This document shows, one piece after another, positions 2,138 to 19,400 of a stretch of DNA of 35,506 nt. Position 1 is the first letter of the stretch, and every line of letters begins with the position of its first letter. Below the pieces are notes generated by a model. It did not search any database and had not been told where the DNA came from. It worked only from the letters and a program-made list of their open reading frames with translations. The position numbers and the translations under genes are program-made. The stretch is from Deltaproteobacteria bacterium (GTDB taxonomy: Bacteria > Myxococcota_A > Polyangia > Haliangiales > Haliangiaceae): NCBI GenBank assembly GCA_013812655.1, contig JACCTC010000177.1, positions 1 through 35,506 on the forward strand. Direction: 5' to 3'.

Positions 2138-2526
2138 TGGTCGGCTTGACCTTCGATACCGGCGCGCTGATCGGCCTGGAGCGCCGCCGTCACGCGATGC
2201 GCAAGGTGTTCGCGACGGCGGTCGAGCACGGCGTACCGATCGTGGTCCCGACGGTCGTCGTGGCCGAGTGGTGGCGAGGCGGCGCGCACGAGAAGGAGCG
2301 CGCCACGATCTTGCGCACGGTGCGCGTCGAGGCTCTAGGAATGCAGCTGGCCCGCCTCGCCGGCATCGCGGTGGGTCTCGTTCGCGGGGCCGCGACGCTC
2401 GATGCGATCGTGATGGCATCGGCATCGCTCCGCGGAGACATCGTGTACACGTCCGATCCCGACGATCTCGGCGCGCTACGCGACGGTGTCCCCGCGTTCG
2501 CCGACGTCCGGATCCTGGTGGCCTGA
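2137..2526 (+). CDS. PIN-domain ribonuclease toxin (VapC-like)
   Basis: The product has 129 residues, the usual PIN toxin length. The acidic metal-binding residues are visible: Asp near residue 6 in the first strand (LTFDTGALI), Glu in VVVAEWWRG, Asp in ATLDAIVMASA, and a final Asp in YTSDPDDL. By family knowledge such toxins cleave RNA, commonly tRNA or rRNA, when the antitoxin is degraded. Start ATG 2137 overlaps the antitoxin stop; GTG 2134 is equally possible and would give the GTGA overlap seen elsewhere in this window. Together with the upstream RHH gene it forms a complete type II toxin-antitoxin pair. Confidence 0.8.
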   Translation: MVGLTFDTGALIGLERRRHAMRKVFATAVEHGVPIVVPTVVVAEWWRGGAHEKERATILRTVRVEALGMQLARLAGIAVGLVRGAATLDAIVMASASLRGDIVYTSDPDDLGALRDGVPAFADVRILVA

Positions 2527-2584
2527 GCCGCCCGCGTGACATGGTCGCCGCGCGCGAGCGGCTTCCGACGGCGGTCAGCGGGCG

Positions 2585-2590
2585 CTACAC
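2585..2590 (+). promoter_or_regulatory. -10-like element of the DUF6922/AbiEii-like operon
   Basis: TACACT lies 7 nt before the GTG start at 2598, so transcription would begin at or next to the start codon. No convincing -35 was found. Confidence 0.45.
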
Positions 2591-2597
2591 TGGAGGC

Positions 2598-2870
2598 GTG
2601 GAGACGCTACGCGAGCTGGCCGCACGGTACGTCTGGTGGCAGGCGCCAGACGTCACGCTGGCGCGCCGCGAGCACTTCCTGTGTCAGCTGATGACGCTCG
2701 GCACCGCCGACGACGTGCGGACGGCGCGGCAGCTGCTTGGCGACGAGGCGTTTCGCGATGCGCTGAGACACGCGCCGCCGGGCGTTGTCGATGCCCGCTC
2801 CTGGAACTTCTGGCACCTCGTCCTGTTCGGCGAGTCACCGCCGCCGCTCCCCGAGCGGCCCCTGCCATGA
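2598..2870 (+). CDS. DUF6922-like antitoxin partner of a nucleotidyltransferase
   Basis: The product has 90 residues. An N-terminal RYVWWQ motif and a C-terminal RSWNFWHLVLFG motif flank a helical middle (LMTLGTADDVRTARQLLGDEAF). From family knowledge, this combination marks the small DUF6922-type proteins encoded just before AbiEii/DUF1814 nucleotidyltransferases. GTG 2598 was chosen because the conserved LRELAARYVWW segment follows immediately and a -10 hexamer lies 7 nt upstream; the frame is open further upstream only as read-through of the preceding gene in another frame. It overlaps the next gene by 4 nt (ATGA). Confidence 0.65.
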   Translation: METLRELAARYVWWQAPDVTLARREHFLCQLMTLGTADDVRTARQLLGDEAFRDALRHAPPGVVDARSWNFWHLVLFGESPPPLPERPLP

Positions 2871-3520
2871 CGTTCGTCCCGCGCCTCGATATCTTGCCTC
2901 CCGCGCAGCGCGCGGTCTGGCCGGAGCTCGCCGACGTTCCTCGCACGTTCGTGCTCTATGGAGGTACCGGACTCGCACTTCGACTGGGCCATCGCGCTTC
3001 GATCGACTTCGATTTCTTCGCGAGTGCGCCACTCGAGCACGAGGTTCTCGAGCGGCTGGCGTTGGTCCGCGATGGCATCACCGTCCAGCACGGTCCATCC
3101 GAACGCACCGTGCTCGTCGAGCGCGCAGGCGCGACGGTGAAGCTCTCGTTCTTTGGCGCCCTGCCATTCGGCCGCGTCGCCGAACCTACGGCCACCGTCG
3201 ACGGGGTGCTGCGGGTGGCGTCGCTGCTCGATCTGGGCGGCACGAAGATCAAGGCCTTGCTCCAGCGCGTCGAGGCCAAGGATTATCGAGACATCGCGGC
3301 CCTGCTCGCGAACGGCGTGGCGCTGACCGAGATCCTGGGCGCCGGGCAGGCGCTGTTCGGTACCGGCTTCAACCCGCTGATCGCGCAGAAGGCACTCTGC
3401 TACTTCAAGGGCGGCGATCTCGAGTCGCTCGATGCGCTGACGCGTGACCTGCTCGCGACGCACGCCGCACAGGATCTCGACATCGCGCTACTGCCACTCG
3501 CCGCAGCGCGCGTCGATTAG
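2867..3520 (+). CDS. AbiEii/DUF1814-family nucleotidyltransferase toxin
   Basis: The product has 217 residues. The nucleotidyltransferase core is clear: a YGGTGLALRLGHR motif (about residues 28-40), then SIDFDFF carrying the DxD metal-binding pair (about 42-48), and a later LDLGGTKIKALLQRVEAKDYRDIAALL segment containing the conserved Lys and the D-x-x-D-I pattern of this family. Known relatives act as toxins that transfer nucleotides to tRNA or another acceptor, with the small upstream protein as antitoxin. It starts within the stop codon of its partner (ATGA). It converges on the GNAT gene with a 3-nt gap. Confidence 0.75.
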   Translation: MTFVPRLDILPPAQRAVWPELADVPRTFVLYGGTGLALRLGHRASIDFDFFASAPLEHEVLERLALVRDGITVQHGPSERTVLVERAGATVKLSFFGALPFGRVAEPTATVDGVLRVASLLDLGGTKIKALLQRVEAKDYRDIAALLANGVALTEILGAGQALFGTGFNPLIAQKALCYFKGGDLESLDALTRDLLATHAAQDLDIALLPLAAARVD

Positions 3521-17324: not shown

Positions 17325-17355
17325 ACCATACAACGTCAGGACGGGGTGCTATATG
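17325..17355. promoter_or_regulatory. Divergent leaderless promoters of the HAD gene and thyA
   Basis: Minus strand: TATGGT (17325-17330), then 6 nt, then GTG 17318. Plus strand: TATATG (17350-17355), then 6 nt, then ATG 17362. Both put +1 at the start codon. The two -10 elements are 19 nt apart, so their polymerases would compete. Confidence 0.5.
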
Positions 17356-17361
17356 CCGGGG

Positions 17362-18153
17362 ATGCGGCCGTACCTGGAGCTGCTCCGCCACGTCCTCGAG
17401 CACGGCGAGCGCCGGACCGATCGCACCGGTACCGGTACGATCTCGCTGTTCGGCGCGCAGACGCGCTACGACCTCCGTGAGGGGTTCCCGCTCGTCACCA
17501 CGAAGAAGGTGCTGTTCCCGGCGGTGGTCCGCGAGCTGCTGTGGTTCCTGCGCGGCTCGACGAACATCAACGACGACCTCAAGCAGCACACGCCGATCTG
17601 GGACGCCTGGGCGGACGAGCACGGCGAGCTCGGCCCGATCTATGGCTATCAGTGGCGGCACTGGGGCGCGACTGGTGACGACCCCGGCATCGATCAGATC
17701 CGCGAGGCGATCGCGACGATCAAGCGTGATCCGATGTCGCGGCGGATCATCGTCAGCGCGTGGAATGTCGCTGACATCCCGAAGATGAAGCTGCCGCCGT
17801 GCCACGCGTTCTTCCAGTTCTACGTCGCGGACGGCAGCCTCGACTGCCAGCTCTACCAGCGGTCCGCCGATCTCGCGCTCGGCGTGCCGTTCAACATCGC
17901 GAGCTACGCGCTCCTGATGGCGATGGTCGCGCAGGATTGCGGGCTCGCGCCGCGCTACTTCGTGCACACCCTCGGCGACGCGCACATCTATCAAAATCAC
18001 GTCGAGGGCGTGAAGACGCAGCTCGCACGCGAGCCGCACCCGCTACCGAAGCTCGTGCTCGCGCCCAAGCCCGTGCTCGAGATGACCTTCGAGGACATCG
18101 CGCTCGAGGGCTACCAGCACCACCCGTTCATCAAGTTCCCGGTCGCGGTCTAG
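17362..18153 (+). CDS. thyA: Thymidylate synthase
   Basis: The product has 263 residues, the usual length. It methylates dUMP to dTMP with methylenetetrahydrofolate in the cytoplasm. The N-terminal [20 protein letters not shown] aligns with characterised ThyA proteins and decides the start: ATG 17362 rather than 17353. Catalytic C147 is in [12 protein letters not shown]; the RTGTGT loop, [18 protein letters not shown], and HIYQNH motifs are all typical. It yields dihydrofolate, which the nearby folA product would reduce. The TAG overlaps the stop of convergent msrA at 18150-18153 through a CTAG palindrome. Confidence 0.97.
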
Positions 18154-18812
18154 TGACCCCGGCGGCCGACGCGCGCGACCAGGTGATCGGCGGCGGCTCG
18201 TGACAGGCCGAAGTCGTCGAGCTCGGCGGCGAGCTGCTCGGGCGTGCCGTGGCCCGCGACGTAGCCGTTGAGCCGGGCGGCGACGGTCGAGTTCACGAAC
18301 ACGTACGGGTTGTAGCGGGCAAGCTCGGCCATCAGGACCGGGTCCTGACGCAGGTGATACTTCTGGTGATAGTCCTCGGCGAGATAGAACCTCGCGCCGG
18401 AGATCACCGGCGTCTCGACGAGGATCCCCTTCGCGGTGATCGTCGCGCGGCTCGCGAGCGCGTCCTCGAGCTGCACGCGGCCGTGGGCGAACACCGCGGC
18501 CATGTACTGGCGGCTGTGGCTCCCGCGCTCCGGCTTGTGGCTCGCCCAGAACAGCTCGAGCAGCGCGGGATAGGAGATCACGCTCGGATCGAAGTCGAGC
18601 TGGAACGCCTCGGTGTGGTCGCCGAGGTTCTCGTAGCTCGGATCGGGATCGGCACCGCCCGCGTAGCCGACGCGGGTACGGACGATGCCGCGGTGACACC
18701 CGAACCGGGCGTCGGGAGTCCAGAATCAACCGAGCGCGAAGGTCGCGGTCTCGGTGACAGGCTGGACCGCATCGAGCGGCAGGCGATCGAGCTTCATCGA
18801 GACGGGCTGCAT
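18150..18812 (-). CDS. msrA: Methionine-S-sulfoxide reductase A with in-frame UGA at the catalytic position (probable selenoprotein)
   Basis: Reading through the TGA at 18726-18728 gives 220 residues. The first 28 end in ATFALG; the UGA is codon 29, followed by [35 protein letters not shown] and AEDYHQKYH. This is the MsrA order, where GCFW holds the catalytic Cys; UGA stands exactly there. The frame is otherwise open. MsrA reduces methionine-S-sulfoxide in proteins using thioredoxin; Cys38 is the other visible thiol. ATG 18812 has GAGG at spacing 6. A stem-loop follows the UGA (18695-18713). A nonsense mutation is the alternative. It lies 54 nt after folA and converges with thyA. Confidence 0.85.
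18695..18713 (-). promoter_or_regulatory. Predicted bacterial SECIS hairpin in msrA
   Basis: Counting from the base after UGA, positions 13-31 form an 8-bp stem: GACGCCCG pairs with CGGGTGTC through one G-U wobble, with a GUU loop at positions 21-23. Loop G followed by U, at about this distance, matches the known requirement for SelB recognition in E. coli-type elements. A competing fold (CCCGA/TCGGG at positions 10-14 and 23-27) is weaker. Confidence 0.6.
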
Positions 18813-18866
18813 CGTTGACCTCACATAACCGTAGCAGCCGACTCGCGCGCTGACCACGCGGCGCCC

Positions 18867-19400
18867 TTAGTTCACGATCGAACGGCGCAGGCGTTCGATC
18901 CGGTACTTCACGCCGTTCTCGTCGCCGATCGCCTCGCCTTCCCACTTCTCGTCGCGGACAAAGCCGAGCGTGTCGAGGTCGGGGATCACGACGTCACATC
19001 CAAACCGGCCCTCGATGCGGGTGAGGTAGATGTAGCGAAGCCGCGGATCGACCAGCGCGCTCTCGAACAGTCCGGCACCGCCGACCACGAAGATCGTCTC
19101 GACTCCCGTGAGCGCGAGCGCCGCGTCGAGCGAGCCCACTGCGATCGCGCCCTCCGGGAGAGTCAGCGCGCCGCGGGTCACCACGACGTTGAGGCGGCGG
19201 GGCAGCGGCTTGCCCGCGACTTCCTTGCTCTCCCACGTCTTGCGGCCCATCACGATCGCGTTACGGGCGCCCTCACGAACCGTCGTCGACGTCACCCGCC
19301 GGAAGTGCGCGAGATCGCCGCGCAGCCGCGGCCACGGCAGGCCCTGGTCCTGGCCAATGCCCCAGTCGAGATCCGCGGCGACGACAACGTCGAAGGTCAC
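18867..19400 (-). CDS. folA: Dihydrofolate reductase
   Basis: The product has 177 residues. It reduces dihydrofolate to tetrahydrofolate with NADPH. Family motifs: VVVAADLDWGIGQDQGLPWPRLRGDLAHF (conserved Trp and LPW region), a mobile VMGRKTWES segment that holds the cofactor, and VVGGAGLFESAL near the C-terminus (GG dipeptide). The Asp/Glu of the substrate pocket is D27-like in RGDLAHF. Start GTG 19400 is 6 nt after TAGCGT. It is followed by msrA after 54 nt in the same direction, and the thyA product that makes dihydrofolate is encoded convergently just beyond. Confidence 0.95.
   Translation of the reverse strand: MTFDVVVAADLDWGIGQDQGLPWPRLRGDLAHFRRVTSTTVREGARNAIVMGRKTWESKEVAGKPLPRRLNVVVTRGALTLPEGAIAVGSLDAALALTGVETIFVVGGAGLFESALVDPRLRYIYLTRIEGRFGCDVVIPDLDTLGFVRDEKWEGEAIGDENGVKYRIERLRRSIVN

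Follow-up and report, generated by a model that had tools for sequence, protein, structure and literature searches.

A probable selenocysteine-containing MsrA of the helical-domain family in a deltaproteobacterial genome, with a SECIS-like hairpin behind its in-frame UGA

The window, that is, the whole stretch of 35,506 nucleotides analysed here, carries a single msrA frame of 220 residues when its in-frame UGA is counted as selenocysteine (Sec), with 28 residues ahead of the TGA and the frame open from there to a TAG. This TGA, at codon 29, is the sole interruption of the frame and takes the place of the catalytic Cys of the GCFW motif. A first-pass annotation of the window had proposed both the stop at the catalytic position and an intact MsrA on its two sides with no other lesion, and the sequence and its translation bear this out. 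The placement of msrA behind folA, from the same annotation, also holds, since a folA-like gene lies upstream on the minus strand and ends at 18867, although the best NCBIfam score of this ORF (73 bits, E 2.4e-20) is below the model cut-off of 350. On the other side, the last 4 bases of msrA also belong to the convergent thyA gene (Table 1). TGA ends 8 of the 14 long window ORFs taken as genes, some of which were labelled by eye, and thus looks like a normal stop in this genome. An annotation that stops at each UGA would truncate msrA to 28 residues or begin it downstream, as a plain ORF list does (GTG at 18581), and the selenoenzyme would be missed. Elsewhere in the window, an ORF at 2636-3520 on the plus strand matches an AbiEii nucleotidyltransferase model (50.8 bits, cut-off 22.5).

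Table 1. Positions in the window of msrA, its neighbours and its predicted recoding features
Feature	Positions	Strand	Basis
thyA, thymidylate synthase, convergent neighbour	17353..18153	+	NCBIfam 401.5 bits, cut-off 327
msrA, predicted Sec-containing peptide methionine-S-sulfoxide reductase	18150..18812	-	translation and Pfam
SECIS-like hairpin, 8-bp stem (18713-18706 with 18702-18695), loop GUU (18705-18703)	18695..18713	-	comparative pairing
Cys39 codon TGT, three bases paired in the 3' arm of the hairpin	18696..18698	-	coordinates and hairpin pairs
In-frame UGA, codon 29, catalytic Cys position of GCFW	18726..18728	-	TGA shared at this column by 20 distinct genes
GAGG, plausible Shine-Dalgarno sequence ahead of the ATG at 18812	18819..18822	-	by eye
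folA-like dihydrofolate reductase, upstream neighbour	18867..19400	-	NCBIfam dihydrofolate reductase models

The protein falls within an already known family, the helical-domain selenoprotein MsrA of the Clostridium oremlandii type. It matches Pfam PMSR over residues 22-155 (105.9 bits, cut-off 23.7) and MsrA_helical (PF20939) over residues 174-204 (26.7 bits, cut-off 23.7), the latter model matching 15 of the 25 members of our alignment A3. By NCBIfam TIGR00401 (msrA, equivalog domain) it is divergent, scoring 93.3 bits against a cut-off of 108.1, while it lies far above the Pfam PMSR cut-off. An AlphaFold2 model of the protein (mean pLDDT 93.9) has C-terminal helices at residues 176-185, 191-201 and 205-218, and the best PDB match of the predicted fold is the C. 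oremlandii enzyme, CoMsrA (4lwj, 40% identity over 207 columns). The seven top matches are all CoMsrA chains (E 6.6e-21 to 2.1e-19), and ordinary MsrA structures start after them at E 2.3e-12. Both the window protein and CoMsrA (PDB 4lwj, 4u66, 7c13) have a catalytic domain, a C-terminal helical domain and, at the catalytic position of GUFW, Sec (predicted for the window protein), but the motif reads GUFWT in the window protein and GUFWG in CoMsrA, and the window protein has one Cys, at residue 39, where CoMsrA has none. According to published work, CoMsrA carries Sec at residue 16 and no Cys, is 20-fold more active in its Sec form than in its Cys form, takes its electrons from glutaredoxin and not from thioredoxin, and requires the helical domain for activity (PMC4333827, PMC4479559). 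Another paper lists MsrA among prokaryotic selenoproteins with the motif GUFWG/H, and a title in its reference list states that the Sec-glutaredoxin of C. oremlandii reduces its MsrA (PMC13188914). In contrast to C. oremlandii, the present assembly offered no Sec-glutaredoxin partner among its five glutaredoxin-family (PF00462) matches, which are all without internal stops.

Other bacteria are already known to have selenium-containing MsrA, and a study of the ocean selenoproteome tabulates MsrA with the numbers 9, 7 and 4,678 (PMC2398784); the window gene is most likely a further, well-supported example. The first-pass annotation had called it a probable new selenoprotein. The selenoprotein part of this proposal stands on the sel genes, the TGA-bearing relatives and the hairpin described below, but a new selenoprotein family it is not, because CoMsrA has been characterised and the Pfam helical domain is named after selenoprotein MsrA. 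A literature search combining Myxococcota or Myxococcales with selenocysteine and selenoprotein, largely outside subscription papers, returned no report for this lineage. The gene extends the helical-domain selenoprotein MsrA to large genomes that have same-genus relatives titled Deltaproteobacteria and Myxococcales.

As contig C492, the window forms part of an 8.1-Mb assembly of 508 contigs (93.5% complete, 3.04% contamination), in which selA, selB, selC and selD, proposed as a check by the first-pass annotation, were all found. Contig C133 carries selA (585.8 bits) and selD (319.6 bits), both above cut-off, and selC (69.3 bits, gathering score 47), which ARAGORN also called as tRNA-SeC with anticodon TCA. 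On contig C500, selB matches profile positions 1-341 above cut-off (290.8 bits), with a weak second match at profile positions 528-578 within one open frame of 769 aa. Because msrA and the sel genes are on different contigs, their joint origin rests on binning. The selD locus (G000:C133:12125-13087, minus strand) has one in-frame TGA of its own, in YARGGGU, the usual Cys/Sec site of SelD at its active site; selD is itself probably a selenoprotein gene, on the contig that holds selA and selC. In a same-genus assembly, selA was matched as two overlapping pieces (G005:C1208:4168-5411), a pattern suggestive of a frameshift or of faulty assembly.

As to relatives, 115 genomes were searched, the genome of the window included, and 101 had an MsrA match at E <= 0.001. 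At least 11 genomes contain a close homologue bearing one TGA, each aligned to residue 29 (L017-L027), a lower bound since it covers the matches read singly among the stronger ones, and 19 further loci (L028-L046) have Cys at residue 29, one of them (L041) with one stop elsewhere within the alignment. In the genus, at least 5 of 16 genomes have the TGA form, so its distribution there is patchy. A scan of genome contigs added 36 loci, with TGA at residue 29 in 12, Cys in 22 and the site uncovered in 2; as 3 of these 12 TGA loci repeat genes of the genome search, the TGA stands in one shared column of 20 distinct genes, window gene counted, from at least five phyla. Their records are labelled Deltaproteobacteria, Myxococcales, Desulfobacteraceae, Nitrospirae, Chloroflexota with Anaerolineae, Planctomycetota with Uabimicrobium, and Syntrophomonadaceae. 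Close relatives, which the first-pass annotation had wanted aligned at this codon, share the TGA without other lesions; a second stop occurs in L050 and L053 alone, and there it falls at the C-terminal limit of the aligned region. Five other MsrA matches with internal stops (three TGA, two TAG or TAA) were rejected as candidates, catalytic Cys being present in all (L095 and L096 have the stop at the C-terminal alignment end, and the aligned part of L094, L097 and L098 is without a stop).

Among the 115 genomes, selA was found in 71 (67 above cut-off), including all 11 with the TGA form, an association with a hypergeometric p of 0.0036 or 0.0018 that ignores relatedness and is optimistic because the genomes are related. 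Comparison of five same-genus TGA genes gave dN below dS in all 10 pairs for the part after the TGA, the dN/dS values being modest (about 0.31-0.54); before the TGA, the 11-12 comparable codons are too few, with dN above dS in one pair and one dS that could not be computed. Viral contigs gave no match to the search patterns, and a plasmid search returned 1075 records, all under 60% identity and the top ones haloarchaeal. When 26 loci were searched with eight proteins of the window, only L023 had thyA and folA beside msrA; it comes from a distant relative (G085) whose Sec-type msrA is next to thyA (2230-3063) and folA (3130-3498). A protein kinase like that of the window lies beside msrA of G006 (L019, L048 and L087, which are one gene), and L051 has a weak kinase match, but such comparisons say little, since most loci carry short flanks only.

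For comparison with the TGA genes, a set of 16 Cys-form helical-domain genes was used (L056 and L060-L074), consisting of seven haloarchaeal and five Thermoplasmatota genes and one each from Dehalococcoidia, Acetothermia, Nanohalarchaeota and Paenibacillus. L075-L080 were excluded because the match ends near residue 155, so that the helical domain is not seen, and L081 and L082 because the site is not covered. These Cys forms, mainly of haloarchaea and Thermoplasmatota, make up one family with the window protein by sequence and tree and are 39-53% identical to it, but have Cys for Sec and no sign of the hairpin. Ordinary Cys-type MsrA (E. coli, bovine, and the copy on C79 of the same assembly) share the PMSR domain and the fold, whereas the six placed in the tree form a separate clade with support of 100/99.

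The context of the UGA, another check put forward by the first-pass annotation, was analysed by comparative pairing, and a SECIS-like hairpin follows the codon, with the stem starting after 12 nt past the UGA and the loop starting at nt 21. This position agrees with that given in a published account, which places the bacterial SECIS stem-loop just 3' of the UGA (PMC9312934). The folding energy of the window hairpin alone is not significant, being not unusually stable relative to shuffles (z = -0.00 for 42 nt and 0.41 for 62 nt), and the comparative test was used for this reason. When every gene was recoded with its own synonymous codons in 2000 trials, the TGA rows, with 136 of 160 stem cells paired, far exceeded the recoded mean of 97.9 (sd 4.0) and were matched by none of the 2000 recodings, whereas the Cys rows showed no excess (53 of 128 paired against 50.9, with 640 of 2000 as high). 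Furthermore, stem cells changed on both sides numbered 16 in the TGA rows, a count that averaged 5.9 in shuffles and was reached in none of 500, and pairing fell from 85% to at most 55% when the partner was slid by 1 to 3 columns. Of five covariation measures, two did not rise above shuffles, namely pairs changed on both sides (3 against 2.8) and further pair types (7 against 6.5), and nothing stood out in the covariation tests of the Cys rows. The pairing is not uniform among the 20 TGA rows: 6 of the 8 stem positions are paired in four (L049, L052, L054, L055) and just 4-5 in three (L022, L023, L050), and the bare GUU-loop hairpin is the most stable simple hairpin in 14. SECIS loops are expected to open with a G. 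GUU occupies the loop position in 20 of 20 TGA rows and in 6 of 16 Cys rows. In addition, position 36 is R (13) or Q (7) in all TGA rows and R, Q, L, Y, I or T in the Cys rows, a limit that would be expected if the loop constrains the codon. Judged from these comparisons, the hairpin is very likely a bacterial SECIS element. Sec forms with the hairpin and Cys forms without it provide a useful case of an RNA element in a coding region that constrains the protein.

From the frame, the machinery, the conservation and the hairpin, all of which can be read in the sequence, we infer Sec insertion and a catalytic cycle, and we put the probability that the gene product is a functional helical-domain (CoMsrA-type) selenoprotein MsrA, with UGA29 read as Sec via the downstream hairpin, at roughly 0.95. 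Codon 29 would be read by tRNA-Sec and SelB under the direction of the hairpin, the Sec selenolate would attack methionine-S-sulfoxide with release of methionine, and the oxidised Sec would then be reduced by an outside thiol, perhaps glutaredoxin by analogy with CoMsrA. The gene could instead be an ordinary Cys MsrA that suffered a nonsense change at the catalytic codon, as a pseudogene or by sequencing error, and the second MsrA of the assembly, a Cys type without stops on C79 (211 bits), means that the window copy could in principle be dispensable. However, the shared TGA and the hairpin speak strongly against such damage: the same position is TGA in 20 distinct genes, the hairpin signal is absent from the Cys forms, the frame has no further lesion and dN stays below dS after the TGA, which together make this explanation very improbable. 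Insertion of Cys, not Sec, at the UGA through a tRNA-Sec-like tRNA deserves similarly little credence. Cys-inserting tRNAs of this kind exist, and a further sequence resembling tRNA-Sec, with anticodon TCA, lies on contig C200 (39.1 bits against a gathering score of 47), but that copy matches selC over its 3' 69 nt only (88% identity; the other match is 20 nt, E 0.38) and adjoins an ORF resembling a tyrosine recombinase, and the complete set of selA, selB, selC and selD is present. The arrangement of the partial copy (L084:4698-4766) and this 403-aa ORF (L084:4787-5998, minus strand), whose likeness to a recombinase was judged by eye, resembles that found where an integrative element uses selC for attachment, and the copy seems to be what is left of an attachment site.

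A further possibility concerns the chemistry of a Sec-containing MsrA, in which Cys39 might be the resolving thiol and form a Se-S bond with Sec29, in a two-residue cycle unlike that of CoMsrA. The first-pass annotation had suggested a second thiol of this kind under the number Cys38; the residue is Cys39, and the suggestion does not hold up well. In this reading the protein contains Sec29 and a single Cys, Cys39, which is found in four of the five same-genus TGA genes and in L024, but these make up just 5 of the 20 TGA rows. In the AlphaFold2 model, residue 29 precedes the helix 31-38 and residue 39 just follows it, so the two would stand at opposite ends, their distance being deduced from the helix. 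Moreover, the Cys39 codon lies wholly inside the hairpin stem, which offers another reason for its presence. A resolving role of Cys39 is therefore unlikely, and the two-residue cycle as a whole is improbable, though somewhat less so than a pseudogene or Cys insertion.

A tree of 36 helical-domain rows and the six ordinary MsrA requires 6 changes of the Sec label, 2 of them forced by starred branches, with weak deep branches; a root on the ordinary clade might fit one gain of Sec and several losses. We offer tentatively, as a conjecture of rather less than even odds, that helical-domain MsrA was ancestrally a bacterial selenoprotein, that archaea (haloarchaea and Thermoplasmatota) may have received it with replacement of Sec by Cys and loss of the SECIS element, and that the hairpin may have shaped the protein of the Sec form, so that R or Q at position 36 (20 of 20) would derive from the hairpin and Cys39 in the clade of the window would have arisen as a side effect of stem pairing. 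The tree can accommodate this scenario, but its deep branches are weak. As a separate observation, the NCBIfam model NF041383 (VPGUxxT thioredoxin-like) matches, below its cut-off, the N-terminal part of the window protein (18540-18809) and of the C79 MsrA (G000:C79:10434-10664), which suggests that this model contains an MsrA-like piece.
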